DNA of 64,000 nt from Promicromonospora sukumoe (lineage in GTDB: Bacteria; Actinomycetota; Actinomycetes; Actinomycetales; Cellulomonadaceae): NCBI RefSeq assembly GCF_014137995.1, contig NZ_JACGWV010000002.1, positions 310,001-374,000 on the forward strand. The letters run 5' to 3'. Made by a program: the position numbers and the translations under genes. Positions 31,319 to 51,284 of this stretch are shown here, in pieces. Numbering within the stretch: position 1 is the stretch's first letter; each line of letters starts with the position of its first letter. The notes beneath the pieces are model-generated. The model was not told the origin of the DNA, did not search any database, and saw only the letters and a program-made list of their open reading frames with translations.

Positions 31319-31843
31319 TCAAGCGGACCTGACCGCGCGCTCGAACGCGCGGTCGGTGATGGACCGGGCGCCCCGGCCGATGGCCAGGGTGCCGGACTTG
31401 ACGATCTCACGGACGCCGTACGGTTCCAGCGCCGCGAGGAGCGAGTCGAGCTTCGCCGCCGGTCCCGTGGCCTCGATGACCACGGAGTCCGGCACGACGT
31501 CGACCACGCGCGCCCGGAACATCTCGACGACTTCCAGCACCCCGGTTCGGGTGGCGGCGTCGGCCCGCACCTTGACGAGCAGCAGCTCGCGGTGCACCGA
31601 CGACTCGGGTTCGAGCTCGACGATCTTGATCACGTGGATGAGCTTGTTGAGCTGCTTCGTGACCTGTTCCAGGGGGTGTTCCTCGACGTCGACGACCACG
31701 GTGATGCGCGAGATCTCCTCGTGCTCAGTGGGGCCGACGGCCAGGGAGTGGATGTTGAACGCGCGACGGGCGAACAGGCCGGCGACGCGCGTGAGCACGC
31801 CGGGCTTGTTCTCCACGAGCACGGACAGGGTGTGCCTCGACAT
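31319..31843 (-). CDS. ilvN: Acetolactate synthase small subunit
   Basis: A 174-residue regulatory subunit. The N-terminal ACT domain (SVLVENKPGVLTRVAGLFAR, then RRAFNIHSLAVGPTE) binds valine for feedback control, and the C-terminal domain (about 85-160) is complete. The ATG at 31843 lies five bp after the ilvB stop. Confidence 0.96.
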   Translation of the reverse strand: MSRHTLSVLVENKPGVLTRVAGLFARRAFNIHSLAVGPTEHEEISRITVVVDVEEHPLEQVTKQLNKLIHVIKIVELEPESSVHRELLLVKVRADAATRTGVLEVVEMFRARVVDVVPDSVVIEATGPAAKLDSLLAALEPYGVREIVKSGTLAIGRGARSITDRAFERAVRSA

Positions 31844-34749: not shown

Positions 34750-37607
34750 CGCCTCCCCTTCGAACGCTTCTTGCCCCGGCTCTGTCCGTGCGGGCCCTGC
34801 CCGTGCTGGCCTGATCGCTGCTGGCCCGACTGCTGCCGGCCTGAACCTTGCCGGCCCGATCCCTGCTGGCCTGAACTCTGCTGGCCCGGGCGCGGTCGTC
34901 CCTGGTCGTCTCGCGGACCGGACCTCGGCGCTTCGCTGTCGTCCGACCCGGCGGCGTCCGCGTCCGTGTCGTCGGACCCGGTGTCGTCGGACCCGGGGTC
35001 GCCGTACTCGTCGTCCGCGTCGCGGTCGTCCGGGTCGAAGTCGTCCAGCCCACGGTCCTCCAACCCGGGGTCGTCCCGTCCCGCGGTGTCCGGGTCGAGG
35101 TCGTCGAGGTCGGTGTCGTCGAGGTCGAGGTCGTCGAGCTCGATCGCCTCGGCCTCGAGCCGGTCCAGCTCGAGGTCGTCCGGTTCCCGATCCTCCGCCT
35201 CCCGGTCGTCCGGCTCAAGCCCCTCCGGCCCAGCTCCCTCCGACCCGGTCCCCTTCGATCCGGTCCCCTCCGAATCCAATCGTTCCGGACGCGGCCGGTC
35301 CTGACCGCCGGACGTCTCCGCCGCGCGCCGCCCCAGCAGCGCCTTGGCGCCCTCCGTCCGGCTCGCGACACGGGCCGACCTGGCGTCGGCGGCCTCCTGC
35401 TTCCGGGCGGCCTTGTCGTCGACGGCGGCCTGCTTGGCGTCGGCGCGCGCCTGCTCCGCCGCGGCCTTGTCGGCCGCCTTCTGCGCCGCTGCCGACTCCT
35501 TGGCGTCGATCTCCGCCTGCTTCTGCGCCGCCCGGTCGTCGATCCTGGCCTGTCGCTCGTCCGCCTTGCTCTGCCTGGCGTCGGCCTTCTCCTGCTTCGC
35601 GGCCGCCCTGGCGTCGGCGGCCGCCTGCTTCTCGGCCGCCTTCGCGTCAGCCGCGGCCTGCCGCTCGGCGATCCGTGCCTCGGCCTCGGCCTGCTTCTCC
35701 GCGACCTTGGCGTCGAACTCTGCGCGCCGCTGGGCGAGCTTCGACAGCCTCGGCTGCGTGTCGGCGTCCGCGAGGGCCACGGCGGCCGTCTGGGCAGAAC
35801 CCGCCGCGGCGGACACCGCGGCCGACTCCGTGCCGGTCGACCCAGTGGCGGCCGTTCCCGTGCCGGCCTTCGACGAGCCCGCGCCGCCGACGCTCTTCCG
35901 CGCCGACGCCGACGCACCGGGCGTAGGCGCACCAGGCTTCGCTGCACCGGGCTCGGGTACACCGGCCTTGGGTACACCAGGCTTGCGCGCGCCGGACTTC
36001 CCCGCACCGGGCTTAGGACCCCCGGACTGAGAACTACCGGACGGAGAGCCGGCCGACGAAGAGCCGGCCGATACGGACGCCGACGGCTTCGGTCCGGCGG
36101 GCTTCGGCGCGGCGGACCGGGGCTTCTCCGCGGGCTTCGGCCCAGCCGCCGTCGTACCGGAGGCGCCGGCACCCTTCGGACCAGCGCCCTTGGAGCCGGC
36201 CGGCTTCGCCCCGTCCGGCTTCGAGTCGACAGCCTTCGAGCCCTTCCCCGATGCGTCACCGTCCCCCGTCTCGCCGCCCCGCTCCCCCGCCCGCGCCGCA
36301 CCGAGCCCGGCGATCAGACCCAGCGGCCCGCGATTCTCCTTCGCGGCGGCCCGCTCCGCGCGGGACGCCTCCTTGGCCGCGGCCTTCGCATCCGCCGCAG
36401 CCTGCTTCTCCGCCACCCGAGCGTCCGCCGCAGCCTGCTTTTCGGCCGCCCGCGCGTCGAGCGCCGCCTGCTTCTCCGCCGTCCGCGCGTCGGCCGCCGC
36501 CTGCTTCGCCGCGGCGTCCTCGGCAGCCTTCGCCTCGTCGGCGGCCTGCCGGGCGGCCGCCTCCTTGTCGGCCTTGCGCTGGTCGGCGGCCTTCTTCCGC
36601 TCCGCGGCCTTGAGTTCAACGGCCTTGCGCGCGGCACGCTCCTCGGCACGGCTGGGCGCGACGACCGCGGGCGGTTCCACCGGGCGCAGCCGCCCGACGA
36701 CGGCGGCCAGGTCCTCGCGCTGCGGCACCAGCTCGCCCGCGAAGAGCTTCTGCTTGGCGAGCGCGCGGGAGATCTCGGCGGGTTCGGCGACGTCGTCCAC
36801 GTGCAGGGTGTCGCCGTCGGCCCGGACCTTGAAGCCGGCGGCGCGCAGGGCCGTCGCCGCGCGGCCCGGCTCGTCGACGCCCACGCGGACGCTGACGCGG
36901 GCGTCGCCCAGGAGCTCGACGGTGCGCCCCTGCGCGAGGATGTGTCCGCCGTCGAGCACGGTGACCGTGTCGGCGATCTGCTGCGCCTCGGTGAGCACGC
37001 TCGTCGCGACGAGGACGGTCTTGCCCTGGTCCGCGAGGCGGCGCAGGGCCTGCCGGATCTCGCGGGTGCCCACGGCATCGAGTCCCGCGCTCGGGTCGTC
37101 GACGACGAGCAGGTCGGGGTCGCGCAGGAGTGCCGCCGCGAGCGCCAGGCGGCGGGCCTCGTCCGGCGAGTAGGTGTCGTAGGCGGCCCGGGCGCGGTCG
37201 GCGAGGACGACGCGGGTGAGCACCTCGTCCACGCGGGCGCGCGGCACGCCGGCGGCACCCGCGAGGAGGGCGAGGTTGCGGCGTCCGCTGAGGCCGCCGT
37301 GGAACCCGGGTTCGCCGACGACGGCGCCGATGCGGCCGGCGAGGTCGGGCAGGCCGTCCGGGACGTGGGTACCGAAGATCTTGATGGCGCCGCCGTCGGC
37401 GTGGGCGAGGCCGGTGAGCAGGCGGAGCGTTGTCGTCTTGCCCGAGCCCGCGAGCCCGAGCAGGGCATGCACGCCCCCGGCGGGCACGCGCAGGTCGAGC
37501 CCGTCCACGCCTACGGCACGCCCGCGCACCGAGCGGTAGGCCTTGCGCAGCCCGAGCGTCTCGATCGCGACCTCGCTCCCTGGAATCACCCGCACAGGGT
37601 AGGGCAT
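34746..37607 (-). CDS. ABC ATPase with degenerate catalytic motifs and a ~630-residue repetitive tail
   Basis: A 953-residue protein. Residues 1-310 are a BcrA-type ATPase: Walker A GLAGSGKT (51-58) is normal, but the signature reads YSPDEARRL (SPDEA at 147-151 instead of SGGMR or SLGMR), Walker B is LLVVDD (Asp170-Asp171, the catalytic Glu replaced by Asp), and the switch His is replaced by Ser203 (ATSVLTE). Residues about 321-425 and 645-790 are 11-residue repeats such as AEKQAAADARA, predicted long helices. Between them is a Lys/Pro/Gly/Ser linker, and after them come an Asp/Glu-rich block (about 810-900) and a Gln/Gly/Ser tail ending in basic residues. ATG 37607 is chosen; ATG 37619 and GTG 37589 are alternatives. 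The permease gene follows with ATGA overlap. Confidence 0.83.
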   Translation of the reverse strand: MPYPVRVIPGSEVAIETLGLRKAYRSVRGRAVGVDGLDLRVPAGGVHALLGLAGSGKTTTLRLLTGLAHADGGAIKIFGTHVPDGLPDLAGRIGAVVGEPGFHGGLSGRRNLALLAGAAGVPRARVDEVLTRVVLADRARAAYDTYSPDEARRLALAAALLRDPDLLVVDDPSAGLDAVGTREIRQALRRLADQGKTVLVATSVLTEAQQIADTVTVLDGGHILAQGRTVELLGDARVSVRVGVDEPGRAATALRAAGFKVRADGDTLHVDDVAEPAEISRALAKQKLFAGELVPQREDLAAVVGRLRPVEPPAVVAPSRAEERAARKAVELKAAERKKAADQRKADKEAAARQAADEAKAAEDAAAKQAAADARTAEKQAALDARAAEKQAAADARVAEKQAAADAKAAAKEASRAERAAAKENRGPLGLIAGLGAARAGERGGETGDGDASGKGSKAVDSKPDGAKPAGSKGAGPKGAGASGTTAAGPKPAEKPRSAAPKPAGPKPSASVSAGSSSAGSPSGSSQSGGPKPGAGKSGARKPGVPKAGVPEPGAAKPGAPTPGASASARKSVGGAGSSKAGTGTAATGSTGTESAAVSAAAGSAQTAAVALADADTQPRLSKLAQRRAEFDAKVAEKQAEAEARIAERQAAADAKAAEKQAAADARAAAKQEKADARQSKADERQARIDDRAAQKQAEIDAKESAAAQKAADKAAAEQARADAKQAAVDDKAARKQEAADARSARVASRTEGAKALLGRRAAETSGGQDRPRPERLDSEGTGSKGTGSEGAGPEGLEPDDREAEDREPDDLELDRLEAEAIELDDLDLDDTDLDDLDPDTAGRDDPGLEDRGLDDFDPDDRDADDEYGDPGSDDTGSDDTDADAAGSDDSEAPRSGPRDDQGRPRPGQQSSGQQGSGRQGSGRQQSGQQRSGQHGQGPHGQSRGKKRSKGRR

Positions 37608-37622
37608 TCCGGACAGCACCCT

Positions 37623-37704
37623 GTGTCAGACCCCGAGAGACGTGTCAGACCCACAGGTCACCCGGGGGACCTGTAGGTCTGACACGTCTCTCGGGGGCTG
37701 ACAC
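37623..37704. terminator. 37-bp near-perfect palindrome (family B, longest)
   Basis: Arms 37623-37659 and 37668-37704 pair with two mismatches around an 8-nt loop. GTGTCAGAC occurs twice in the left arm, so a family-B hairpin is nested in a second copy of its own outer block. It lies between the end of the ole-like operon and the ABC ATPase start, all on the minus strand. Confidence 0.75.
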
Positions 37705-37712
37705 GTGGGGGA

Positions 37713-38687
37713 TTACCAGGTCATCGCGCCGTGCAGCGACGTCGGCGCCGGGTCCACGCCGAGGCGTTCGCGCAGCACCGTGAGGTCGTAGGTGCGCTCC
37801 ATCGCGAGGTGGCTGATGGCGTACCGCGACAGGCGCGGCTCGCGGCGGGTCCACCGGGCCAGCCGTTCGGCCGCCCAGGCCAGGGCGTTCGCGAGCCGGA
37901 TCGGGACGTCCACCACCTGCACGGGGTGGAACCGCGCGAACATCAGCAGCTCCAGCGTCTCGTGGAGGTCGACGGGGCTGGCGTCGGCGACGTTCGCCAC
38001 GAGCGGCCGCCCGGCGGCGACCTCGGGCTCGACGTCCACGTCGAGGGCGGCGCGCACCGCGCGGGCCAGGGTGTCGACGTGCGTGAGGTGCTGCCGCACC
38101 CTGCCGCCGCCCGGCAGGGGCAGCCAGGCGCCGATCGCCGCGGACTCCAGGCGCGGCAGCAGCGTCGTGTCCCCCGGCCCGTAGACCGCGTGCGGGCGCA
38201 GCACGACGACGGGACCGCGGTCGTCGCGCGCGGCGTCGGCCGTGAGGTACCGCTCGGCGGCGGCCTTCGTGGAGCCGTAGGGGTTCATGTACCCGCGTGC
38301 GGGCGCCTCGGCCTCGGTCGCGACGACGCTCGGCGTCCGCGGGTCGTACACGCTGCCCGAGGACAGGTGGACGAACCGCGCGCCCGGGAACGTCTCCCGC
38401 ACCGCGCGGGTGCCCTCGACGTTGACCACCCAGGCGCGCGCGTGGCTGCCGCCGTCCCCGACGGCCGCCCCGCAGTGCACCACGACGTCGACGTCCTCGG
38501 GCCGGTCCTCCTTGGGCAGCGGGCCGTCGCGCAGGTCCCAGAACTGGTGGGCGACGCGGTCCAGCAGCTCCGCCGGTACGCGCGGAACCCGGCGCGAGAA
38601 CGCGATCACCTCGTGCCCGTGCGCCGCGAGGTCCCGCACCACGGCCCCACCCACGAAACCAGACGAACCGGTCACAGCCACCCTCAT
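37713..38687 (-). CDS. Extended SDR family reductase, OleD-like
   Basis: A 324-residue NAD(P)-dependent reductase. The dinucleotide motif VTGSSGFVGGAV is at the N-terminus, and the catalytic YGSTKAAAE (Tyr, Lys) lies near residue 140 after LSSGSVYD. In olefin or beta-lactone pathways OleD/NltD reduces the 2-alkyl-3-keto acid made by OleA to the beta-hydroxy acid. The ATG overlaps the stop of the AMP ligase, and a long palindrome follows. The role is assigned by context. Confidence 0.8.
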   Translation of the reverse strand: MRVAVTGSSGFVGGAVVRDLAAHGHEVIAFSRRVPRVPAELLDRVAHQFWDLRDGPLPKEDRPEDVDVVVHCGAAVGDGGSHARAWVVNVEGTRAVRETFPGARFVHLSSGSVYDPRTPSVVATEAEAPARGYMNPYGSTKAAAERYLTADAARDDRGPVVVLRPHAVYGPGDTTLLPRLESAAIGAWLPLPGGGRVRQHLTHVDTLARAVRAALDVDVEPEVAAGRPLVANVADASPVDLHETLELLMFARFHPVQVVDVPIRLANALAWAAERLARWTRREPRLSRYAISHLAMERTYDLTVLRERLGVDPAPTSLHGAMTW

Positions 38688-40546
38688 GCGCGCACTGTAC
38701 CCGCGAGAGGTGAAACCAGGCCGACCAGGGCATGGCGGTCCGGTTTCCGGGACCGGCCCGCGAGCGGGACGTGCGACGCCTCGACCACCAGGTCGGGCAG
38801 CGCGCCGTGGTCCAGGACCCGCGCGACCTGGTCCGCGACGGACCGGGCGAGGTCGGTCCCGGCCCGCACCCACGGGACGCCCTTGCCCCGCGGTTCAGCA
38901 GAGTCCCGAGGCGCGCCCTCCCCCGCCGCATGCTCCGCGGTCACCACGAGGACCACCCGCTCGTCGCCGTCGGGCATCGGGACGCCCACCATGACGGCGT
39001 CGCCCACCCCGGGCAGGTCCCGCAGCCGGGGCTCGAACAGCCCGGGGTAGATGTTCACGGTGCCGCGGATGATCATGTCCCGGTTGCGTCCGACCAGCAC
39101 GATCCGGCCGTCCTCGTCCTGGTAGGCGAGGTCGCCCGTGCGGTGCTCGGTCACCCGGGGCTTGCCGGCGTCGAGGTCGGCCAGGTACCCCGCCATCAGG
39201 GACGGCCCGGTGAGCACCAGCTCACCCACAGCGGGGCCGTCGCCGGGCGCCCCGGCGTCCGTGTCGGTTCCGGCGGCCGCGTCGCCCTCAGCACCGGCTT
39301 CGGGTAGGTCCTCGTCCAGCCCGACGACGGCGGTGTCGATCCGCACGCCGATGCCGCCCAGCGGACGACCCACGAGGTCGCCCGGGGCCCCGCCGTCGGA
39401 CCCGCCGTCGGACCCGGCGCTCGCGGCCGTCCCGGAACCCGCGGCGGCCGCGATCTTCTCGTCGGCGTCGGTCATCGCGGCGGGGAGGATCTCGGTGGCG
39501 CCGTAGACGGCGATCCAGCGGGTGCCCGGCAGGACGCGCCGGCCGCGTTCGAGCAGCGCCACGGTCACCGGCGCGGCCCCGACGGCCAGCACGGCCGGGC
39601 CGACGGCGGGACCGGCGGCAGGGCTGCCGACTGGACTGCCGTCCGCACCGCGCGCCTCCAGGACGTCGAGCAGCGCGGTCACGTCGGCGGGCACCAGGAA
39701 CGACGAGTCGGCACCCGCGACCCCGCGCGCGAACGCCTCCGGGGCGTCCTTGGGCGCGCGCGCCGGGATCTCCCAGGTGCCGCCAGACAGGACCGCCGGG
39801 AGCCCGAGGAACATCTGGTCGGTGTGCGCTCGCTGCCCGGCCCGCAGTCCGCCGACCTGCGCGAACAGGCCCAGCATGCCGCCGAGCGTGTCAGCCGTGT
39901 GCACCACGGCCTTCGGCTCGGCCGTGGTCCCGGAGGTGAAGACGATCAGGGCGGGGTCGCCGCCGTCGGGAGAGCCGCCGTCCGCACCGCCGTCCGCCCC
40001 GGAGGGCGCGGCCGGGAGAGCGACCGCCGGAAGAACGTCGTCCGCGAGCACCCGTGCAGCGCGCCGGGCACCCCGCGGCACCCCGGGGAGCCACCGGCCG
40101 GAGTACAGGTGCCGCACGGGCAGTCGGCCGTAGTCGGGCAGCAGCAGCCCGCGCGACCGGGCGACACCGCGCAGCGGCCCCGACGACGCCGCGTACAGCA
40201 GCGCCTCGGTCGCCGCCCAGCGGGGCCGCGCCGCCGCGATGCGGGCGGCGAACAGCTCCGGCGTCGACCCGGGGTCCACGAAGACGACGGCGCCGCACGC
40301 GCGCAGGATCGCGAGGCACAGGACCACGCCCTCGGGCCGGGGCCGGATGCTGAACAGCACCCGGTCGCCGGGCTCCATCCCCTGCGCCCGCAGGCCCGAC
40401 GCCGTCCGCTCGACGCGCTCCGCGAGCCCGGCGAACGTGACCTCCTCGCGCACGCGAGCGCCGTCGCGACCGCCGAACCAGCGCAGCGCGACGGCGTCGG
40501 GCGTGTCCCGGGCGAGGGTCGCGAGGTCGTCCAGGAAGTGGGTCAT
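38684..40546 (-). CDS. AMP-dependent ligase, OleC/NltC-like beta-lactone synthetase
   Basis: A 620-residue ANL-superfamily enzyme. The phosphate loop IVFTSGTTAEPKAVVHT is near 201-217, YGATE near 350, and the late motifs are EHRTGDLAYQDEDGRIVLVGR and DMIIRGTVNIYPGLFE. OleC-type enzymes close a beta-hydroxy acid to a beta-lactone via the acyl-AMP. Gly/Ala/Asp-rich inserts (about 180-197, 300-325, 370-395 and 420-450) make it longer than usual. The neighbouring ketosynthase and SDR favour this over a plain acyl-CoA or fatty-acyl-AMP ligase. ATGA overlaps on both sides. Confidence 0.8.
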   Translation of the reverse strand: MTHFLDDLATLARDTPDAVALRWFGGRDGARVREEVTFAGLAERVERTASGLRAQGMEPGDRVLFSIRPRPEGVVLCLAILRACGAVVFVDPGSTPELFAARIAAARPRWAATEALLYAASSGPLRGVARSRGLLLPDYGRLPVRHLYSGRWLPGVPRGARRAARVLADDVLPAVALPAAPSGADGGADGGSPDGGDPALIVFTSGTTAEPKAVVHTADTLGGMLGLFAQVGGLRAGQRAHTDQMFLGLPAVLSGGTWEIPARAPKDAPEAFARGVAGADSSFLVPADVTALLDVLEARGADGSPVGSPAAGPAVGPAVLAVGAAPVTVALLERGRRVLPGTRWIAVYGATEILPAAMTDADEKIAAAAGSGTAASAGSDGGSDGGAPGDLVGRPLGGIGVRIDTAVVGLDEDLPEAGAEGDAAAGTDTDAGAPGDGPAVGELVLTGPSLMAGYLADLDAGKPRVTEHRTGDLAYQDEDGRIVLVGRNRDMIIRGTVNIYPGLFEPRLRDLPGVGDAVMVGVPMPDGDERVVLVVTAEHAAGEGAPRDSAEPRGKGVPWVRAGTDLARSVADQVARVLDHGALPDLVVEASHVPLAGRSRKPDRHALVGLVSPLAGTVRA

Positions 40547-41901
40547 GAGATCTCCTCCACGCGCGTCTCCACACCGGTCTCCGCACCAGTCTCCACGGCC
40601 GTCCCCAGGCTCAGCTCCAGCGACCGGTACGCCGGGACCAGCACGCCGCGCGCGGCCTGGCGCCGTCCGACGACGGGGACGCGGCCGTCGGTCGCCGCGG
40701 CCGCGAGCGCGTCCAGGACGACGTCCACCTGGGCCATCGCCAGCGGCATGCCGAGGCAGAAGTGCGGGCCGGCGCCGAACCACAGGTGCCGCACGGCGGG
40801 ATCGACGGGCCGGTCGGGGTCGAAGCCGCCGGACGCCCGGCAGCAGTTGACGGTGGCGATCACCACGCGCTCCCCCGCGGCGACGGGCAGCCCGCCCACC
40901 GACGCGTCGGCCCGCACGGAGCGCAGCATCGCGGGCGTCGGCACGGTGACGCGCAGCCCTTCCTCGACGGCACGACGGCGCAGCGCCGCGTCCGGGGCCA
41001 GCAGCCGCGCGGTCCACCCGGTGTCGTGCGCGATCGCGACGAGCCGGGGCACGAACGACTGGATGGTCTCGGTCCCGGTGAGTACGAACGCTCCGACGGC
41101 GCCCATCGCCTCCCGCTCGGACAGCCCGAGGTCGCGCATGCGACCCGGGACCGTCGCCGGATCCCCGGCGCGGTAGGCGGCCCGGGCGGGCGCGGTCAGG
41201 CGCTCCAGCACCTCGCGCGCCCGCACCACCTGGGACCTCGTGAGCCCATGGCGGTGCAGCCGCACCATCCCGGTGATCGTCTGGGCGGCGGACATCGCGG
41301 AGCGCACGGCGTCGTCCGTCGGCGGCAGGCCGACCATCCCGCAGATCACCGCGCCGGCCTGCGCCGTCACGGCGGCCGCCAGATCGACTCGCTCGCCCGC
41401 GGCGAGCCGCCGCGTCAGGTCCGGCAGCACGCCGCCGCCGTCCGCTCCTTCGTTCCTCGGCGGCCCGACGACGTTCGCGACGTCGGCCCCGCCGGCGCCG
41501 GACACCAGCTCCCGCACCGCCCGGGGCGAGAACAGCGGCCCGAGCGCGCGCCGCAGCGCGGCGTGCTCCGCGCCCTCCATGTTGAGCAGCACGGACGGCC
41601 CGAGCACGGGCGTCCACAGGTCCGACGGCGCTCCCGGGCCCACCTTGGAGAAATGGTCCAGGTCGAGCAGCACCTCGCGCGCGATCGCGGCGTCGTTCAC
41701 GATCACGCCGATGCGCGGGACCCGCACCACGGGCCGGCCGCGCGCGGACCGCAGCGCCGGGTACGCGAGCGGGTGCGCGGCGCGCAGCACGCGCTCCTCC
41801 CAGCGCGCCTCGGGCCCGACGGCGCCTGACACACTTTTTCGGTCGGGGGCCGGATCCGGGGCCGCGGCAGGGCCGGGCCGGGCCCGCAGGCCCGTCCTCA
41901 T
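40543..41901 (-). CDS. Cytochrome P450 in the ole-like operon
   Basis: A 452-residue soluble monooxygenase. The I-helix oxygen-binding motif is FVLTGTETIQS, the ExxR motif is VEEGLRV, and the heme-Cys motif is WFGAGPHFCLGMPLA. The N-terminal 25 and C-terminal 15 residues (VETGAETGVETRVEE) are repetitive and unlike the rest. It is co-translated with the GT2 gene upstream and the AMP ligase downstream, so it probably oxidises the pathway product. Redox partners are not encoded nearby. Confidence 0.92.
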   Translation of the reverse strand: MRTGLRARPGPAAAPDPAPDRKSVSGAVGPEARWEERVLRAAHPLAYPALRSARGRPVVRVPRIGVIVNDAAIAREVLLDLDHFSKVGPGAPSDLWTPVLGPSVLLNMEGAEHAALRRALGPLFSPRAVRELVSGAGGADVANVVGPPRNEGADGGGVLPDLTRRLAAGERVDLAAAVTAQAGAVICGMVGLPPTDDAVRSAMSAAQTITGMVRLHRHGLTRSQVVRAREVLERLTAPARAAYRAGDPATVPGRMRDLGLSEREAMGAVGAFVLTGTETIQSFVPRLVAIAHDTGWTARLLAPDAALRRRAVEEGLRVTVPTPAMLRSVRADASVGGLPVAAGERVVIATVNCCRASGGFDPDRPVDPAVRHLWFGAGPHFCLGMPLAMAQVDVVLDALAAAATDGRVPVVGRRQAARGVLVPAYRSLELSLGTAVETGAETGVETRVEEIS

Positions 41902-42683
41902 CGGATGTCCACGACGTCGGGCCGGTAGCGGTGGTCGGCGTACCAGCCGAGCGTCCGCACCAGACCCCACGCGTGCACCCGCCGCGTCGACGCGCGCACC
42001 CAGACCTCGCGGTGCTCCCCGTACCGCGTCGTCAGCCGGCGGACGGCGTTCACCAGGGCACGGTCCTCGTGCAGGTCCTCGATCCGGGTGCGCGGGAACC
42101 CGCCCGCCCGCTCGTACAGGGACGCCGTGATCGCCATGTTGCAGCCCGGCGCCATCACGTACGGCCCCAGGTACCCCTCGTCCTGGTTCCCGGGCCGCAC
42201 CTTGCCGAACGTGCTGGAGACCCACAGCGCGAACGACAGCACACCCTGCTGGAACCGCGAGACCGGCAGGTCGTCCCTGCGCGGCACGAGCCGCCCGGCG
42301 ACCAGCTCGTCGCCCGACGCGAACGCCGCCCGCACCGCCCGGGTCCAGCCCGGCGGCGGCAGACAGTCGGCGTCCGTCCGGGCCAGCAGCTCGGCGCCCA
42401 GCGCGATGGCGGTCCGCATCCCCGTGTCCGCGGCGGCGCCCGTCCCCTTCTCGGGCTCGGTCACCACCTGCCAGCGCAGCCGCCCCCACTCCGCGATCGC
42501 CTTGCGCGCCACGTCGGGCGTGCCGTCCGTGGAGCCGTTGTCGACCACGACCAGGTCGAAGTCGTCGTCCTCCTGCGCGTGCAGCGCGGCCAGGGTGCGC
42601 GCGATCCCGTGCTCGTGCGCCTCGTTCAGCGCGGGCACGACGACGGCGAGGCGGGGTCTGTGCCCATGAGGCTGGTCGTTCAC
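41898..42683 (-). CDS. GT-A fold glycosyltransferase family 2
   Basis: A 261-residue glycosyltransferase: VVVPALNEA and VVDNGSTDGTPD for nucleotide-sugar binding, RTDADCLPPPGW with the metal-binding DxD-like motif, and RIEDLHEDRAL for the base region. No membrane span is obvious except a short hydrophobic stretch near 148-156. GTG 42683 overlaps the ketosynthase stop (GTGA); an adjacent GTG at 42686 is possible. It suggests a glycosylated product, which is unusual in ole/nlt-type clusters. Confidence 0.88.
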   Translation of the reverse strand: MNDQPHGHRPRLAVVVPALNEAHEHGIARTLAALHAQEDDDFDLVVVDNGSTDGTPDVARKAIAEWGRLRWQVVTEPEKGTGAAADTGMRTAIALGAELLARTDADCLPPPGWTRAVRAAFASGDELVAGRLVPRRDDLPVSRFQQGVLSFALWVSSTFGKVRPGNQDEGYLGPYVMAPGCNMAITASLYERAGGFPRTRIEDLHEDRALVNAVRRLTTRYGEHREVWVRASTRRVHAWGLVRTLGWYADHRYRPDVVDIR

Positions 42684-43873
42684 CACCGGACCACCATCGC
42701 GCCCATGCTGATCCCGCCCGCGAGACCGAGGAGCAGCACGACGTCGCCGCGGCGCAGCCGCCCCGACTCCAGTGCCGTGACGAGCTGCAGCGGCAGCGTC
42801 GCCGAGGCCAGGTTGCCGTGGTCCCCCACGGTGACGATCGTCCGGTCGGCCGGCACGCCGAGCGCCGCGTGCACGTCGGCGAGGTAACCCACCGCGACCT
42901 GGTGCACCGCGACGAGCGCGACGTCGTCCATGGTCACGCCCGCCCGCTCCAGCGCCTCGTCGACCGGGCCGGGCCCGAGCGCGAGGAACGCCTCGCGCAG
43001 CCGCGAGCCGTCGATCTCGAAGTAGCTGCGCTCGGGGTCGCGCGGGTTGACGGTGCCGCCGCCCGGCAGCATGCCGACGTCCCAGTGCCGCGACTCGGCC
43101 GTGAACGCCGAGCCGAGGATGCCGGAGGGCCGGGCGGCGGGCGCGACCAGGCCGGCGAGCTCAGCGGACAGGGCGTCCTCGAAGCCCGACGGCGGGTCGA
43201 CCGCCTCGACGAGCACCGCGGCCCCGCCGTCGGACATCGTGTAGCCGGCCGCGGACATCGCGTACGTCGCCCGGTCGGGCACGTCCCACCGGACGCCGCG
43301 CGTCGGCATCTCGCCGGACGCCACCAGTACGCGGCGGTACCGGCCGGTGCCGATGAGGGCCTCGGCCACCTCGATGCCGTTGAGCACGGAGTTGCAGGCG
43401 TTCTTGACGTCCATCACGGGTGCCCGGACGCCGAGCTTTGCCGCGGTGATGTGGCTGGTCGCGGGCTCGATCATGTCCTGGGTGGCGGACGCGAAGATCA
43501 GCAGGTCGATGTCCTGCGGCCCCAGGCCCGCGCGCTCCAGCAGGGTGCGGGAGGCGGCGACGGCGAGGTCGGAGGCCTGCTGGTCGTCGTCGGCCACGTG
43601 GACCGTACGCACGCCGGTCAGGCGCGAGATCATGGGCAGGCGCGGCGCGACCTTCGGGTTCCTGCGGTGCAGGTCGCGCTCGGCCTCGGCCACGTCGCGG
43701 ACGCGCTCGGGCAGGTGGACGGCCACCTCGGCGATGCGGGCGACGGGACGCGGCGCCTGGCTCGACGGCAGGGCCGACGGCGAGATCGAGGCCTGCGTGG
43801 AGACGACAGGCTCGGGAGAACGGGCGGGAACCGGGCTCAGCACGGCGGCTGGTTCGGGAAGCACCCGGGACAC
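42680..43873 (-). CDS. Thiolase-fold ketosynthase (OleA/FabH-like)
   Basis: A 397-residue KAS III-type enzyme. The catalytic triad is visible: Cys160 in DVKNACNSVLNG, His324 in VAVHQVAVG and Asn354 in DHGNLASATLP. OleA relatives join two acyl-CoA chains head to head to a 2-alkyl-3-keto acid. The first 45 residues are Pro/Ala/Ser-rich. GTG 43873 has AGGGCGG upstream; GTG 43864 and 43843 are alternatives. First gene of a five-gene overlapping operon down to the SDR. Which family member it is (OleA, FabH or a 3-oxoacyl synthase for another product) rests on the context. Confidence 0.82.
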   Translation of the reverse strand: MSRVLPEPAAVLSPVPARSPEPVVSTQASISPSALPSSQAPRPVARIAEVAVHLPERVRDVAEAERDLHRRNPKVAPRLPMISRLTGVRTVHVADDDQQASDLAVAASRTLLERAGLGPQDIDLLIFASATQDMIEPATSHITAAKLGVRAPVMDVKNACNSVLNGIEVAEALIGTGRYRRVLVASGEMPTRGVRWDVPDRATYAMSAAGYTMSDGGAAVLVEAVDPPSGFEDALSAELAGLVAPAARPSGILGSAFTAESRHWDVGMLPGGGTVNPRDPERSYFEIDGSRLREAFLALGPGPVDEALERAGVTMDDVALVAVHQVAVGYLADVHAALGVPADRTIVTVGDHGNLASATLPLQLVTALESGRLRRGDVVLLLGLAGGISMGAMVVRW

Positions 43874-43970
43874 GTTAGCCGCCCTACCGACGCTTCCACC
43901 CGGAATGTCCGCCTGGGCCCCCGCCGGACCGCACCGCTGCCGCGGGCCCGGCGGACATAGGGTGACGGCC

Positions 43971-45242
43971 GTGATCAAGACCTTCGCGACAACCCGCCAC
44001 GAGCTGGGCCTGCTGTACCGCGCTCGGCCGGCGATGGCCGGGTTGCTCCTGCTGGGCACCGCGGCCCAGAGCTGGTCCGCCAAGGGCTCACCGGTACGGA
44101 AGGTGCCAGGAATCGGATGGGTCACGTCCGACCCGGTCGTCGCCCGCACCGTCCTACGGGACCATCGTTCGTTCACGATCCTCGGCGAGGGCGGCGTGGG
44201 TGACCTCTGGACCCAGATCCTGGGCGACTGGGTGCCCGGCGTCTTCGACGGCCCGGGCCACCACGCACTGCGGTCCCGCTCGCGCGAGCTGTTCACGGAA
44301 GCCGGCTCGGCCGCGCTCGTCGCGGACACCTGGGACCCTGTTCTCGCCGGAGCCGGCGACACCCTTCGTGCCGGCGGGCGGGTGGACGTCGCGCGGCTCG
44401 CCCGCGTGCTCGTCGGCCGCATGATGGTCTCCCTGCTCGGGCTGCCGGCCCCGGTCGGCGCAGGCGACGCCTGGCCGAGCGACGAGGACGCCCTTGACGC
44501 CTTCGCCACCGGCGAGCGCCTCGCCACCGTCGCGCTCGGCACCGCGGGCTCCACCAGGCTCTCCCCCGGGCAGATCGCCACCGCGCGGACGATCGTCGAG
44601 GAGCTCACCGCGGGTGTCCCGGAAGGCTGGCGCACCGCGCCGCCCGACCGGCTGCTCGGCCGGTGCCGTGAGCTGGGTCTGGGTCTCCAGGAGACGACGG
44701 GCCTTGCGAGCCTCCTCATGGTGGCGGGTACCGAGACGTCGGCGAGCGCCATGATGCGGACCACTGCACTGCTCGTGGACACCGGCGAGCAGCACAAGCT
44801 CCTCGCACGCCTCTCCCGGGCCGACGACGACGCCGCACCGGGCAGCCTCCTGCCCGGCGAGGGCGACCCGGTCGAGAACGCGGTCCGCGAGGGCCTGCGG
44901 GTGACGAGCCCCGCGTCGGTGATCGGGCGCGGCGTCGCGCAGGACGTCGAGGTGGGCGGGGCGAGGCTGCGGGCGGGCGAGCGGATCATGCTCCTCGTGT
45001 GGTCGGCGAACGCCGCGGCGGGACCGTTCCAGGCTGATCGGCCCTACGTGCGGGAGACCCGGCAGCTCTGGTTCGGGGCGGGCCGGCACCTGTGTCTGGG
45101 CGCGGCGCTCGCCAGGGCTGAGATCGCCGCTCTGCTCCGCACTCTCTGGGGTGACGGCGAGCCTCTGCGCGTGGTGCGCCGCCGCGCGCAGCGCCAGGTG
45201 CTCATCCCCGCCTACTCGGAGCTGGTGGTCACGCGCGCCTGA
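43971..45242 (+). CDS. Cytochrome P450, divergent from the ole-like operon
   Basis: A 423-residue P450. The I-helix motif is LMVAGTETSAS, the ExxR motif VREGLRV and the heme motif WFGAGRHLCLGAAL. The start GTG 43971 is preferred because AGGGTG lies at 43959-43964; GTG 43962 is the alternative. It is divergent from the ketosynthase with a 97-bp spacer, so shared control is likely. Sequence differs clearly from the other P450, so it is not a tandem duplicate. Confidence 0.92.
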   Translation: MIKTFATTRHELGLLYRARPAMAGLLLLGTAAQSWSAKGSPVRKVPGIGWVTSDPVVARTVLRDHRSFTILGEGGVGDLWTQILGDWVPGVFDGPGHHALRSRSRELFTEAGSAALVADTWDPVLAGAGDTLRAGGRVDVARLARVLVGRMMVSLLGLPAPVGAGDAWPSDEDALDAFATGERLATVALGTAGSTRLSPGQIATARTIVEELTAGVPEGWRTAPPDRLLGRCRELGLGLQETTGLASLLMVAGTETSASAMMRTTALLVDTGEQHKLLARLSRADDDAAPGSLLPGEGDPVENAVREGLRVTSPASVIGRGVAQDVEVGGARLRAGERIMLLVWSANAAAGPFQADRPYVRETRQLWFGAGRHLCLGAALARAEIAALLRTLWGDGEPLRVVRRRAQRQVLIPAYSELVVTRA

Positions 45243-45269: not shown

Positions 45270-46232
45270 TCATCGGGTGGCCCGGTAGATCTCGCGCACC
45301 ACGTCCTCGATGTCGGGCTCGGCGATCGACAGGTCGAGCACCTCGGCCCGCTCGGAGATAGCGGCGAGCACGCGTGCCGCCGTCGTGCGCTGGGGGTCGA
45401 AGGCGAGGCGCTGACGGAGGCCGCCCGAGTCGCTGCGCACGTGCTCCGCGCCCGGCACGTCGGTCAGGTCGGGGCGGGACTCGGCGAGGTCGACGACGAG
45501 CTCCCGCCGCGCGCCCACCGTGCGCGCCAGCCCGTCGAGCGTGCCGTCGAACGCGAGCCGCCCGTGGTCGACGACCAGGATGCGGTCGCAGAGCCGCTCG
45601 ACGTCGCCCATGTCGTGCGTGGTGAGCAGCAGCGTGGTGCCGTGCTCGCGCCGCTGCGCCACGAGGAACTCGCGCAGCCGCTGCTTGGACAGCACGTCGA
45701 GGCCGATCGTCGGCTCGTCGAGGATCACCAGGTCGGGGCGGTGCAGCAGCGCGGCCGCGACCTCGGCGCGCATGCGCTGGCCGAGGGAGAGCTGTCGGAC
45801 GGGCGTGTCCAGGAACTCGCCCATCTCCAGCATGTCGACGAGCTCGGTGGTCCGGACCCGCTCGTCCGCGGCGGTCAGGGAGTGGATCGCGGACAGGATC
45901 GAGAACGACTCCCGCACCGGCAGGTCCCACCAGAGCTGCGACCGCTGCCCGAACACCACGCCGATCCGCCGGGCGAGCGCGCGCCGCTGCTTCAGGGGAT
46001 GCAGCCCCATGGTCGTCACCGCCCCGCTCGTGGGCACCAGGATGCCGACCAGCATCTTGATGGTGGTCGACTTCCCGGCCCCGTTCGCGCCGATGTAGCC
46101 CACGGACTCGCCCGCCTGGACAGTCAGGTCCAGGGCGTCGACGGCGACGTGCCGCGAGCGCCGCAGCCGGTTCTTCCGGTCCGGCCGCCCGGTGAACACC
46201 CGGGTCAGGCCCTCGGCCTCGATGACGTTCAT
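45270..46232 (-). CDS. ABC transporter ATP-binding protein (DUF990-type exporter)
   Basis: A 320-residue ATPase with all motifs intact: Walker A GANGAGKST, Q-loop GVVFGQRSQLWWDLPV, signature LSLGQRMRAEVA, Walker B LVILDEPTIGLD and switch TTHD. The YIGANGAGKSTTIK and SQLWWDLP combination is typical of the ATPases paired with ABC-2 permeases of the DUF990/daunorubicin-resistance type. Third gene of a permease-permease-ATPase operon, ATGA overlap with the second permease. It ends tail to tail with the P450 at 45242. Confidence 0.92.
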   Translation of the reverse strand: MNVIEAEGLTRVFTGRPDRKNRLRRSRHVAVDALDLTVQAGESVGYIGANGAGKSTTIKMLVGILVPTSGAVTTMGLHPLKQRRALARRIGVVFGQRSQLWWDLPVRESFSILSAIHSLTAADERVRTTELVDMLEMGEFLDTPVRQLSLGQRMRAEVAAALLHRPDLVILDEPTIGLDVLSKQRLREFLVAQRREHGTTLLLTTHDMGDVERLCDRILVVDHGRLAFDGTLDGLARTVGARRELVVDLAESRPDLTDVPGAEHVRSDSGGLRQRLAFDPQRTTAARVLAAISERAEVLDLSIAEPDIEDVVREIYRATR

Positions 46233-47143
46233 CCGCCCGCTCCTCGGTAGTGACGAAGTCCCCAGCGCCAGCACAGCGCCGCGACGCCGACCGCCCACAG
46301 CGCGGCGAGCGGCGCGCACCAGCCCAGCCAGTCCGGCAGGCCGGCGACGCCGGGCACGCCCAGCAGCGTGGAGACCGGCAGGAAGGCCGCGAACGCCACG
46401 GGGAAGACGGCGCCGAAGACCACCAGCAGGCTCCGCGGCCACACGCTGGTGGGCTGCGTGGCCGCGTATCGCCCGCCGTACACGAACGCGTTGGTCATCT
46501 CGGCGCCGTTGACCAGGAAGAACTGCAGGCCGGCCGCGGTGACGAACTGCGCCGTGAAGATGACGAAGCCGCTGACCAGCGCGAGCGCGAGCAGCCCCAC
46601 GGTGCCCGCGGTCCAGTCGATGTCGTTGAGCACCAGGCCGACCGTGAGCGACGTCGCGCCCACCAGGCAGCGCCCGATCCGGCGCAGGCTGAGATCGCTC
46701 GTGACGAGCTGCGCCAGCACCGGCTGCGGGCGCAGGAAGAACACGTCGAGCGTGCCCGCGCGCACGTACACCGGGAGGTTGTCGCAGTGCCCGGCGACCA
46801 GGTCGGCCAGGGAGAAGGCGAGGTCGGACAGCCCGAACACGAGCATGATCTGCGCGAGCGTGAACCCGCCGATCTGGTCCGTCGCCGAGTAGAGCACCCA
46901 GATCTCGGCGAACTCGATGGCGCCCACGAGCAGCGCGCCCACCAGGTCCATGCGGAAGCTGGCACGGTGGCTCGCCTGCGAGCGCGCGCGGCTCGCGATC
47001 ACGGCCCGATAGGCGCGCAGGGTCTCGCGCCCGCGGGTTCTCAGCTCAGCCAGCGCCTTTTCGTGGCTGAGCCTGCGGCTCCGCTCCGGGCGAGTGCCTC
47101 GTTCCTCGGCCCTCACCCTGCGCTGCTCCTCCGGCTCAGCCAC
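46229..47143 (-). CDS. ABC-2 family permease (DUF990 type)
   Basis: A 304-residue permease with a charged cytoplasmic N-terminus of about 60 residues and six spans. The segment YVRAGTLDVFFLRPQPVLAQL is typical of this family. GTG 47143 overlaps the end of the preceding permease gene by 8 bp. Substrate unknown. Confidence 0.87.
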   Translation of the reverse strand: MAEPEEQRRVRAEERGTRPERSRRLSHEKALAELRTRGRETLRAYRAVIASRARSQASHRASFRMDLVGALLVGAIEFAEIWVLYSATDQIGGFTLAQIMLVFGLSDLAFSLADLVAGHCDNLPVYVRAGTLDVFFLRPQPVLAQLVTSDLSLRRIGRCLVGATSLTVGLVLNDIDWTAGTVGLLALALVSGFVIFTAQFVTAAGLQFFLVNGAEMTNAFVYGGRYAATQPTSVWPRSLLVVFGAVFPVAFAAFLPVSTLLGVPGVAGLPDWLGWCAPLAALWAVGVAALCWRWGLRHYRGAGG

Positions 47144-47954
47144 CCTGCACCTCCAGCCTGCGGCGTCCCGCCCGCGTGGTCAGGTGCCCGACGACGAGGA
47201 CGATCGTCAGCCACAGCGCCTGCACGCCGAGGTGCTGCCAGGCGGCCGCCCCGGTGACCTGCCCGGAGAGCACGTCGATCGGGAGCTGCATCATCGACGG
47301 GAACGGCGTGAGCAGCGCGAGCGTCAGCAGCCAGTCCGGGAACAGGTAGATGGGCGTGAACAAGCCGGCGAACAGCCCCGAGAACGCCATGTAGAACACG
47401 CTGATGCCGCGGGTCTCCACGAGCCAGAACCCCGACGTCGCCACGGCGTACATGGCGGCGTGCGAGACGGCGATCCCCAGCAGCAGGCTGATCAGGCCGA
47501 GGGCGTAGGCGCTCGGCTCGGAAGGCAGCACCATGCCGCCGACGGCCACCCCGATGAGCACGCTCGGCAGCCCGCGCGGCAGCAGGCCGAACAGCCCCTT
47601 GCCGACGTCGGTCAGCACGTGGGAGGCCTGGACGCTCACGGGCCGCAGGAAGTCGACGGCGACGTCGCCGTCCTTGATGCGGGCCTGGAGGTCGCTGCCG
47701 CCCCACAGGTTCACCGACCCGAGCATCCCCTGCCCGAGCCACACGAAGGCGGCCATGCTGCCCGCCGTGTACCCGGCCAGCTCGCCGCCGGAGCTCTCGA
47801 CGGCGGCCCCCATGATCGCGCCCTTGAGCACGCCGAACGTCGCGTTCGCGACCAGGCCGGCGAGCGTCGCGAGCGGGTAGGCGGACTGCCCGCGGAAGCC
47901 CGCCACGAGGAACCGCCAGTACGGGTTCCGGGCGGGTGAAGGGAGCGGGCGCAC
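47136..47954 (-). CDS. ABC-2 family permease (DUF990 type)
   Basis: A 272-residue permease with six spans; the family segment ARIKDGDVAVDFLRPVSVQAS parallels the one in its partner, so the two form a heterodimer. GTG start at 47954. First gene of the exporter operon. Confidence 0.87.
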   Translation of the reverse strand: MRPLPSPARNPYWRFLVAGFRGQSAYPLATLAGLVANATFGVLKGAIMGAAVESSGGELAGYTAGSMAAFVWLGQGMLGSVNLWGGSDLQARIKDGDVAVDFLRPVSVQASHVLTDVGKGLFGLLPRGLPSVLIGVAVGGMVLPSEPSAYALGLISLLLGIAVSHAAMYAVATSGFWLVETRGISVFYMAFSGLFAGLFTPIYLFPDWLLTLALLTPFPSMMQLPIDVLSGQVTGAAAWQHLGVQALWLTIVLVVGHLTTRAGRRRLEVQGG

Positions 47955-48017
47955 AAGCGCGAGAGATTACCGCGCCGGTGCCCGCTCGGCATCCTGTTTT
48001 TTCAGAGGTCCGGTTGT

Positions 48018-48599
48018 TCAGAGGTCCGGGCGCAGGCGCTTGCACAGCACCCGCGTGACGACGTCGGCGGCCTGCTGCGCCGTGATCTCCACGTGCTCGG
48101 TGGTCTCCATGCCGAGCGCGGACCGGCGCAGGAACTCGGTGGGCTCCCAGTGCAGGTTCCGGGTGAAGGCCTGGTCGACGGCGTCCGGCCCGGTACCGCG
48201 GCGCCGCACGACCCCCGACGCCCGGTCGGGCGGGAGCCCGGGCGGCAGCAGCGCGTGGTACGTCGCCGGCGGGACGGTCCGGCCGGCGAGGTAGGTCTCG
48301 AACGTGATCAGGAGGAGGTCGGGCGGCGCGAGGTCGGCGTCGGTCTGGGACTCGGTCTCCGGGTCGATCTCGGTCCAGGTCTCCACCACGTCGTCGTACA
48401 CGTCGTCGGTGTCCAGGAGCAGCTCCAGGTCCGCTCCCGCGCAGTCGTCGAGCATGGTGAACAGCGCGTCGGGCAGCAGGTCGGGCGGGTGCGCCCAGCC
48501 CAGCCCGGTGACGGCGCCGTCCGCGCCCCGGAGCGGCTTCCCCAGACCGAGGAACAGCCGGCGGGCGGGGCAGGTCAGGTAGGCGTAGGCGGAGGCCAT
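48018..48599 (-). CDS. Hypothetical protein
   Basis: A 193-residue protein not recognised. It is acidic in the middle (LLDTDDVYDDVVETWTEIDPE) with an N-terminal YLTCPARRLFLGLGKPL stretch and a C-terminal segment ending CKRLRPDL. No membrane segment or signal is seen. It follows the VOC/pterin gene by four bp and precedes the exporter operon by 63 bp, so the four-gene run may be one transcript. Confidence 0.7.
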   Translation of the reverse strand: MASAYAYLTCPARRLFLGLGKPLRGADGAVTGLGWAHPPDLLPDALFTMLDDCAGADLELLLDTDDVYDDVVETWTEIDPETESQTDADLAPPDLLLITFETYLAGRTVPPATYHALLPPGLPPDRASGVVRRRGTGPDAVDQAFTRNLHWEPTEFLRRSALGMETTEHVEITAQQAADVVTRVLCKRLRPDL

Positions 48600-49275: not shown

Positions 49276-49421
49276 GGCTCGGGCCTTCTCTCGTGCAGCA
49301 TCTCGTCCGGGTACCCCCACCATGGCACGAGACGCTGACAGCCGACAGGGCCCGGCGCACCACCCGTCCGGCGCACCCGAGGGCGCGCCGGACGGGCCGG
49401 CAGGTCAGCCCCGACGCAGGG

Positions 49422-51284
49422 TCAGCCCCGGCGCAGCCGGGCGACGTCGCGCACGGCGCCGCGGTCGGCCGACGTGGCCAGGGCCGCGTAGGCCTGGAGC
49501 GCGGGCGACACGTAGCGGTCGCGGGCGACGGGCTGCCACGGCCGCTCGGAGGACTCCATCTTGGCGCGCCGCTCGGCGAGCACCTCGTCGGGCACGTTGA
49601 TCTTGATCGCGCGGGTGTCCACGTCGATCTCGATCTCGTCGCCGTCCTCGACCAGGCCGATGGTGCCGCCCGCCGCCGCCTCCGGGGAGACGTGCCCCAC
49701 GGAGATGCCGCTGGACCCGCCGGAGAACCGGCCGTCGGTGATCAGCGCGACGACCTTCCCCAGGCCGCGGCCCTTGATGTACGACGTCGGGTAGAGCATC
49801 TCCTGCATGCCCGGCCCGCCGGCGGGACCCTCGTAGCGCACGACGACGACGTGGCCCGGCTCGACCTGCTTGGTCAGGATCTTCTCGACGGCCTCGTCCT
49901 GCGACTCGCAGACGAGCGCCTTGCCCACGAAGTGGAAGACGTCGGGGTCGACGCCCGCCGTCTTGAACACGGCGCCGTCCTCGGCGAGGTTGCCGCGCAG
50001 CACGGCCAGGCCGCCCTCGACGGTGTACGCGTGCTCGACGTCGCGGATGCAGCCGCCCGCGCCGTCGGTGTCCAGCGTCTCCCACTGGTTGTTCGTGGAG
50101 AACGCCTTGGTGGTGCGCACGCCGCCCGGCGCGGCGTGGAACAGGCCGAGCGCCCGGTCGGTGGCCTTGCCGCCGCGGACGTCCCAGTCGTCGAGCCACG
50201 CGCGCAGCGTGGGCGTGTGCACCGAGGTGACGTCGTGGTCCAGCAGCCCGCCGCGGTCGAGCTCGCCGAGCAGCGCGGGGATGCCGCCCGCCCGGTGCAC
50301 GTCCTCCATGTGGTAGTCCGGGTGGTTGGGCGCCACCTTGGACAGGCACGGCACCCGGCGGCTGATGTCCTCGATGTCGGCCAGCGTGAAGTCGACCTCC
50401 CCCTCCTGGGCGGCGGCCAGGACGTGCAGCACGGTGTTCGTCGAGCCGCCCATGGCGACGTCGAGCGCCATCGCGTTCGCGAACGCCGCCTTGGTGGCGA
50501 TCCCGCGGGGCGCGGCCGTGTCGTCCTCGTCCTCGTAGTACCGGCGGGCCAGGTCCACGATGGTGCGGCCGGCCTCCAGGAACAGCTCCTTGCGGGCGGC
50601 GTGCGTCGCCAGCGTCGAGCCGTTGCCGGGCAGCGACAGGCCCAGGGCCTCGGTGAGGCAGTTCATCGAGTTCGCGGTGAACATGCCGGAGCACGAGCCG
50701 CAGGTGGGGCACGCGTTCTCCTCGACCAGGCCGAGCGCGGCGTCGTCCACGTTCTCGTCCGCCGAGTAGTTGATCGCGTTGATCAGGTTCAGCGGCGTCT
50801 TCGCGACGCCGTTCGCCACGACCGCCTTGCCGGCCTCCATGGGGCCGCCCGACACGAAGATCACCGGGATGTTCAGCCGCAGGGCGGCATTGAGCATGCC
50901 GGGCGTGATCTTGTCGCAGTTCGAGATGCAGACCAGCGCGTCCGCGGTGTGCGCCTGCACCATGTACTCCACGGAGTCCGCGATCAGGTCGCGGCTCGGC
51001 AGGGAGTAGAGCATGCCGGCGTGGCCCATCGCGATGCCGTCGTCGACCGCGATGGTGTTGAACTCCTTGGCGACGCCGCCGGCCTCCTTGATGGCGGACG
51101 CCACGAGGTCGCCCATGTCCTTGAGGTGTACGTGCCCCGGTACGAACTGCGTGTACGAGTTCGCGATCGCGATGATCGGCTTCCCGAAGTCCTCGGAACC
51201 CATGCCGGTGGCGCGCCAGAGCGCGCGGGCTCCGGCCATGTTGCGGCCGTGGGTGGACGTCCGGGAGCGCAGGGGACGACTCAT
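49422..51284 (-). CDS. ilvD: Dihydroxy-acid dehydratase
   Basis: A 620-residue Fe-S enzyme, third step of Val/Ile synthesis. Cluster-related Cys residues are in [12 protein letters not shown] and [41 protein letters not shown] is the conserved C-terminal segment with the catalytic Ser region. It stands alone, divergent from a CBS-domain gene. Confidence 0.97.

Follow-up and report, generated by a model that had tools for sequence, protein, structure and literature searches.

The window analysed here, a 64,000-nucleotide stretch of the soil actinobacterium Promicromonospora sukumoe (contig NZ_JACGWV010000002.1, positions 310,001 to 374,000; on contig 2 of a genome of 6.51 Mb), contains five overlapping genes for an OleA-type ketosynthase (KS), a family 2 glycosyltransferase (GT2), a cytochrome P450 (P450a), an OleC-like adenosine monophosphate (AMP)-forming ligase and an OleD-like short-chain dehydrogenase/reductase (SDR), with a second P450 gene (P450b) read divergently. 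The pathway is real and widely conserved, and its kind had been predicted in earlier literature; what is new is that the five-gene set recurs across many actinobacterial genera, beyond one Actinoplanes, that it has a constant site between ilvD and ilvC in the countable genomes of the family, and that some carriers encode an OleB at another place. The enzymes probably couple two fatty acids head to head, oxidize the product and tag it with a sugar, and perhaps close a reactive ring. We consider a beta-lactone the likeliest product, and we put the probability of a dedicated head-to-head acyl condensation leading to a tailored beta-lactone at about one half.

According to our proposal, the KS would condense two fatty acyl-coenzyme A (acyl-CoA) molecules to a 2-alkyl-3-keto acid in a non-decarboxylative Claisen reaction, with E136 as the base and C160 as the acyl carrier, and the SDR would reduce this acid to a 2-alkyl-3-hydroxy acid. 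P450a, together with its paralogue P450b where present, would hydroxylate an acyl chain, GT2 would transfer a sugar onto the hydroxyl, and the ligase would adenylate the carboxyl group and close the beta-lactone, which would persist because no OleB was found in the window genome. We infer the reactions, their order, the sugar and the lactone from the genes described below.

Gene set and ketosynthase

The six genes of the cluster are as follows.

42680..43873, minus strand: OleA-type KS, 397 amino acids from a GTG, true start uncertain (Pfam ACP_syn_III/ACP_syn_III_C)
41898..42686, minus strand: GT2, 262 amino acids, start at 42686 or 42683 (Pfam Glycos_transf_2)
40543..41901, minus strand: P450a, 452 amino acids, heme Cys382 (Pfam p450)
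38684..40546, minus strand: OleC-like AMP-forming ligase, candidate beta-lactone synthetase, 620 amino acids (Pfam AMP-binding)
37713..38687, minus strand: OleD-like SDR reductase, 324 amino acids (best NCBIfam match oxyalk_red_OleD)
43971..45242, plus strand: P450b, paralogue of P450a, 423 amino acids, heme Cys375 (Pfam p450)

The gene set, its catalytic residues, its family placements and its conservation were observed directly, as was the lack of an OleB match in the genome at E ≤ 1e-10. The nearest named relatives of the proteins come from this genus, with the ligase, for instance, sharing 84-88% identity with proteins of P. sukumoe. KS, GT2, P450a, ligase and SDR follow one another on the minus strand with end-to-end overlaps, which read ATGA at the SDR/ligase and ligase/P450a junctions and GTGA at P450a/GT2; the GT2/KS junction is also GTGA, provided that GT2 starts at its second GTG. 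The start codons of KS and P450b, as read, lie 97 bases apart, and a promoter scan found none. An earlier annotation made from the letters alone (the sequence-only reading) had proposed these genes, strands and overlaps, with a GT2 and a P450 within the minus-strand operon. Our analysis confirmed them, and the families of all six proteins agree with Pfam as well as NCBIfam.

The same reading had described a thiolase-fold KS with Cys160, His324 and Asn354, and this triad proved invariant across 20 KS homologues and present in 31/31 cluster KS rows aligned to Xanthomonas OleA. It is not diagnostic of the OleA type, because it also occurs in 9/9 other type III ketosynthases (KS III). A glutamate tells the two groups apart. 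E136 of the KS aligns with Glu117 of Xanthomonas OleA, a position that is identifiable because a Protein Data Bank (PDB) search with canonical OleA shows the wild type beside an E117Q mutant. In a 56-row alignment, this Glu was found in all 31 cluster KSs and all 15 KSs of OleD-type loci and in none of the nine other KS III; by pattern, it was found in 116/120 and 119/120 homologues among the matches listed and in 78/80 loci. The Glu is the base in OleA (Glu117) and PpyS (Glu105) and is absent from MxnB/CorB, as described in the excerpted text of PMC4578411.

The KS tree held the window KS, 30 of the 80 cluster loci, 15 OleD-type loci and nine other KS III, two of these from the window genome. 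Among the OleD-type loci (loci bear L numbers, genomes G numbers), 13 carry an OleB-OleC (OleBC) fusion and two (L170 and L177) have no OleC match. L004 gave no row in this tree. The nine other KS III split off by a 99/97 branch. Grouping with FabH would have spoken against the sequence-only reading, and the KS stands apart from these nine; clustering with FabH and the loss of the Glu base, which together would mark a FabH, are seen neither in the tree nor in the alignment. The genome holds three other KS III matches. In two loci of family f15 (L171, L172), the OleA beside an OleBC fusion carries EPATS and NACNS, like the window KS, and the other canonical OleAs looked at (L166, Xanthomonas OleA) read NACL instead. 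Judging by these motifs, the L171/L172 OleA could possibly link the cluster KS clade with the canonical OleA clade.

Scanning GTDB genomes with the 20 KSs yielded 148 relatives, and we retained the 80 best loci. All five genes occur together in 68 of these 80 loci, accompanied by P450b in 31, and several of the missing genes fall at contig ends or beyond the flank limit. Because of this co-occurrence, which exceeds chance, we regard the five genes as working as one unit. By eye, KS-GT2-P450-ligase-SDR is the usual order; the exceptions are L124 (ligase inverted), L087 (scrambled contig) and a few inserts. Two further genomes of the class (L209, L210) have the order KS-GT2-ligase-P450-SDR, and the closest proteins to the L209 KS are from Streptomyces. 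The inserts measure 2-3 kb and lie between P450a and ligase or between KS and GT2 (L042, L043, L098, L099 and L119, Myceligenerans-type; L096, Antribacter gilvus); one frame of the L096 insert resembles an ABC permease by eye.

Carriers include Promicromonospora, Antribacter, Myceligenerans, Cellulosimicrobium, Oerskovia, Isoptericola, Actinotalea, Flavimobilis, Salinibacterium and Leifsonia, and further Arthrobacter, Pseudonocardia, Lentzea, Saccharothrix, Saccharopolyspora, Streptosporangium, Nonomuraea, Hamadaea and others. The Promicromonospora family has a KS match in 49 of 150 genomes, two of which are other KS genes (G046 and G119; 35% and 31% identity, different neighbors), leaving 47. 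A sample of the phylum gave the KS in at least 3 of 396 genomes at E ≤ 1e-40, the window genome among them; this is a floor because each genome contributed few scored candidates (four among the rows listed). The distribution names tractable hosts for work on the pathway.

Ligase, reductase and tailoring enzymes

The ligase had been called OleC-like, a claim at risk if it grouped with acyl-CoA-type ligases. Our tree comprised the window ligase and those of 27 cluster loci, 12 of the 13 canonical OleC sequences, cut from OleBC fusions (L174 was left out, having no BLAST match), and 12 of the 17 AMP-binding matches of the window genome itself. The 28 rows of the cluster clade and the 12 of canonical OleC fell together, with 98/95 support and a long-branch warning, against the genome's 12 own AMP ligases. 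The residue before the catalytic Lys is Arg in 56/76 cluster ligases, including that of the window, and Gly in 2/76; canonical OleC has Ser (11/12) or Ala (1/12), and Gly stands before it in the 10 of 12 own AMP ligases in which the pattern, which allowed GK, SK or AK only, matched. PRK09274 is the best NCBIfam model for both the window ligase (128.5 bits) and canonical OleC (371.7 bits), against a cut-off of 478, and no chain named OleC was among the 60 PDB matches listed. Kinship of the ligase with OleC is therefore supported by the tree, by the residues other than Gly before the Lys and by the common model. The OleD-like character of the SDR is likewise supported by its best NCBIfam match, the OleD model, at 120 bits and thus well below the 580-bit cut-off. 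Among the SDR homologues, GxxGxxG is kept in 69/69 and the catalytic Ser, Tyr and Lys each in 68/69.

The sequence-only reading held the second P450 to be dissimilar from the first, which our data contradict. P450a and P450b share 35% identity over 362 residues, the best match of P450a in the genome is P450b (4.6e-41, the next being 5.1e-12), and a P450 tree separates the pair by a 100/100 branch from three further P450s that the genome encodes. Each of the A and B clades has support, and two additional loci have a lone P450, which groups with A (95/86); the genome's own L213 gave no row. P450b thus looks like an old duplicate of P450a rather than an unrelated enzyme. It lies within the flanks of 39 of the 80 loci. 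In nearly all homologues of the two P450s, the heme Cys, ExxR and the I-helix residues are conserved (P450a: heme Cys 77/78, I-helix Glu 78/78, I-helix Thr 77/78; P450b: heme Cys 38/39). Sequence matches in the PDB spread over many families, none of them close. NCBIfam TIGR04515, the model for P450-derived glycosyltransferase activators, scored 47 bits with P450b and 31 with P450a against a cut-off of 343, and we rejected a role of the P450s as inactive helper proteins of the glycosyltransferase, given that they retain heme Cys, ExxR and I-helix Thr. The DxD and E-D motif residues of GT2 are present in 80/80 loci. Its AlphaFold2 model has a mean predicted local distance difference test score (pLDDT) of 84, and Foldseek retrieved many GT2 enzymes with 12-25% identity among the matches listed.

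OleB, the ilv site and the likely product

Does the cluster make an olefin with an OleB encoded elsewhere? We built a profile from three OleB domains (G008, G057, G340, which therefore match it by construction) and ran it on 31 genomes. The sequence-only reading had noted that OleB is missing from the window, and its case would have suffered from an oleB elsewhere that is co-regulated with the operon; the profile found no OleB anywhere in the window genome at E ≤ 1e-10 (74 of 80 candidates scored). The profile works, because it gave 4e-161 to 6e-130 in G007, G020, G021, G050 and G103, none of which are source genomes. Among the 28 cluster-bearing genomes, five (G007, G008, G021, G050, G103) have a strong OleB match (E < 1e-100), three have weak ones (8e-16 to 3e-12), and 20, the window genome included, have none at E ≤ 1e-10. 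Leaving the window genome aside, 22 of 27 carriers are without a strong OleB, three of those with weak matches. The five strong matches are what an olefin pathway with OleB supplied in trans would need; their OleB, however, sits in a separate oleA-oleBC-oleD locus (G008, G021) or on a different contig from the KS (G007, G050, G103), and with most carriers lacking even a weak match we regard olefin synthesis as highly improbable. A decayed olefin cluster was rejected as well, since the KSs and ligases of the cluster form clades apart from the canonical enzymes, and five carriers have an OleB at another place. The presence of OleB at another place in these five of 28 carriers separates the cluster from the olefin pathway, and the cluster is a pathway parallel to olefin synthesis.

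The site of the cluster is bordered by genes of branched-chain amino acid synthesis, and a strong hairpin follows the SDR.

49422..51284, minus strand: ilvD (dihydroxy-acid dehydratase), one border of the site (Pfam ILVD_EDD)
30233-31261, minus strand: ilvC, other border (Pfam KARI)
about 31319-31840, minus strand: ilvN, other border (Pfam ALS_ss/ACT)
31849-33726, minus strand: ilvB, other border (Pfam TPP_enzyme)
37619..37709, no strand: long inverted repeat directly after the SDR stop, possible transcript end (the stretch 37605-37715 folds at -82.3 kcal/mol, z -10.8)

In the Promicromonospora family, the KS lies between ilvD and ilvC in all 41 countable genomes (KS, ilvC and ilvD at E ≤ 1e-180 on one contig), with a median ilvC-ilvD gap of 16.7 kb. 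Family genomes without the cluster (a subset of 43) have a median gap of 8.8 kb and a minimum of 4.6 kb. The constant position and the shorter gap in cluster-less genomes suggest one ancestral site with losses in the family. Six genomes were not counted (G008, G026, G050, G128, G137, G138); in G008 the cluster lies about 4 kb from ilvC, and in G050 it lies about 25 kb from ilvC, with no ilvD at E ≤ 1e-180, which counts against a fixed site there. By tblastn, ilvD and ilvB are near most loci of the family. Outside the family, ilv genes were found in 0/45 loci within the fetched stretches, some of which are short. The ilv genes might be linked to the supply of branched-chain acyl starters, which is only a guess.

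Several neighbors share the site. ATP-binding cassette (ABC) transporter genes are embedded with the cluster in the ilv locus: ABC-2 type export genes (an ATPase and two PF06182 permeases; 45270-48045, minus strand) adjoin P450b, and a further ABC ATPase lies past the SDR (34746-37619, minus strand). Relatives of the export genes are found in Promicromonospora, Antribacter and Myceligenerans loci, yet not at every cluster locus. A fused protein resembling pterin-4a-carbinolamine dehydratase and glyoxalase is encoded between the ABC genes and ilvD (48604-49323, minus strand). At L041 and L044-L052, which come from several genera other than Promicromonospora, another dehydratase-like gene that shares about 38-39% identity with ilvD lies between P450b and ilvD or close by. 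The plus-strand open reading frames at 30221, 32026 and 33883 have no Pfam match, and the first two overlap ilvC/ilvN and ilvB on the opposite strand. The hairpin is near-perfect, and the genome contains two exact copies of its 16-base core, both of them at this site; a terminator scan requiring a T run gave nothing at 37619-37709. Close relatives (L035/L086 and L036/L087) have shorter hairpins after the SDR with a CAGGTC/GACCTG core. In a search for proteins common to at least four of 30 chosen loci, conserved extra tailoring genes were considered and rejected: the five recurrent neighbors with an annotation are three ABC transporter ATPases and two LytR-CpsA-Psr proteins (Streptosporangiaceae).

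Several observations weigh against a tailored beta-lactone made by an OleA-type route. By raw hidden Markov model score (NCBIfam), the KS fits FabH (166.6 bits) better than PRK09258 (136.8 bits), all below cut-off. Its AlphaFold2 model has the KS III fold (mean pLDDT 78, the first ~40 residues poorly modelled), and in a Foldseek search FabH structures head the list, with OleA appearing from rank 17. The KS reads EPATS, 14 residues, DVKNACN and so misses the last position of EPxx[AS]x(14,18)DxxNACL, a published pattern for finding OleA. The ligase joins OleC under the long-branch warning, is just 26-30% identical to 12 of the 13 canonical OleC sequences, has no match to the 13th and lacks the canonical RHNSKIDR end. 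The substrates that we propose for GT2 and the P450s are putative. We know of no product or activity for this clade. The OleA of a like cluster in Actinoplanes atraurantiacus was active on a p-nitrophenyl ester, with little protein recovered and no reaction with any acyl-CoA tested, according to the excerpted account of Smith et al. 2020 (PMC7064751). We gave the Glu and the tree more weight than the raw scores, Foldseek and the pattern because the Glu bears on mechanism; the pattern (PMC7158056) is a search pattern from one study and no mechanistic feature.

The first rank of FabH by score and fold, together with the ilv genes flanking the cluster in the Promicromonospora family, would also fit ordinary primary metabolism, in which a FabH-like starter KS and a fatty acyl-CoA ligase are tied to the supply of branched-chain amino acids. 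We judge this to be very improbable: the OleA Glu is conserved, the three other KS III matches are at hand in the genome, the ligase lies apart from the 12 own AMP ligases, and the ilv genes are missing from the fetched stretches of all 45 loci outside the family.

The chief rival to the beta-lactone is a mycolate-like glycolipid. OleA plus OleD chemistry yields the corynomycolate skeleton, so that KS and SDR could make 2-alkyl-3-hydroxy acids, the ligase could merely provide an acyl-AMP for an ester or thioester, and GT2 and the P450s could build a glycosylated, hydroxylated envelope lipid without a lactone end product. The presence of GT2 in 80/80 loci and the Lys motif of the ligase, unlike that of canonical OleC, are in line with this, and the same ilv site in 41/41 countable family genomes suits a vertically kept lipid over a mobile antibiotic. 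The ligase, however, groups with OleC, apart from the 12 own AMP ligases, and no acyltransferase was recognized among the annotated recurrent neighbors in our limited search, and we hold the glycolipid to be possible and rather unlikely. More speculatively, and we would call this doubtful, the product could be a glycosylated, hydroxylated 2-alkyl-3-hydroxy fatty acid lipid and not a beta-lactone antibiotic. Actinobacteria that lack mycolic acids would then have an independent route, based on a thiolase, to envelope lipids of a mycolate-like kind, long kept at the fixed ilv site, with ilv products supplying iso/anteiso chains.

The conserved five- or six-gene unit and its fixed ilv site in most Promicromonospora-family carriers argue for a lasting lipid function. 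Beta-lactones inhibit enzymes covalently, and one of them, lipstatin, is the parent of an anti-obesity drug. A glycosylated beta-lactone, if this is indeed the product, would be of interest.

Comparison with known systems

PpyS-type pyrone synthases, which we compared by description, are head-to-head KSs with a Glu base too, and their homologues occur in Streptomyces and Nocardia (excerpts of PMC4578411). A PpyS-like pathway, in which the KS condenses an acyl and a 3-ketoacyl unit and the ring, a pyrone or other, closes by itself, would account for the Glu of the window KS. A pyrone needs no ligase or SDR, though, and the OleC-like and OleD-like genes that accompany the KS (five genes in 68/80 loci) would be superfluous, which makes such a pathway improbable.

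The canonical oleA-oleBC-oleD cluster of the Micrococcus type resembles the window cluster in having an OleA with the Glu base and OleC and OleD functions in one cluster. It differs in the OleB-OleC fusion, present in 13 fetched loci, where the window cluster has GT2 and P450s and no OleB.

The sequence-only reading had likened the cluster to nlt. The lst and nlt clusters share with it a KS, a ligase and a reductase, and their product is a beta-lactone. The nlt cluster, like lst, has two KS genes. Lipstatin synthesis uses a KS heterodimer, LstA/LstB, with both subunits catalytic (partial text of PMC12141560), and the lst and nlt producers are named as having oleACD clusters without oleB in the excerpts of PMC7064751. 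Compared by description, two KS subunits there stand against one KS here that has both Cys and Glu; a single KS was found in the window cluster, and in relatives a very divergent second KS could escape the search. The likeness to nlt holds for the KS, ligase and reductase set without OleB and is otherwise loose.

The closest system is that of Actinoplanes atraurantiacus, which has an OleA, a glycosyltransferase, an OleC, a P450 and an OleD, with no oleB in the genome and a hydroxylated, glycosylated beta-lactone as the predicted product, as reported in the available part of Smith et al. 2020 (PMC7064751). The claim that the combination had not been described thus falls. The glycosylated, P450-tailored beta-lactone of the sequence-only reading is plausible and equals the published prediction for this like cluster, which supports our proposal; glycosylation and lactone closure are the steps that we still infer. 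No identification of a product of such clusters was found in the open-licence literature. By description, the two clusters agree in the five functions, the lack of oleB in the genome and the predicted product class. They differ in that the Actinoplanes text puts OleC before the P450, which is the order of L209 and L210, whereas the window cluster has the P450 before the ligase and a paralogous second P450. Hamadaea (L144), which belongs to the same family as Actinoplanes, Micromonosporaceae, has the cluster as well.

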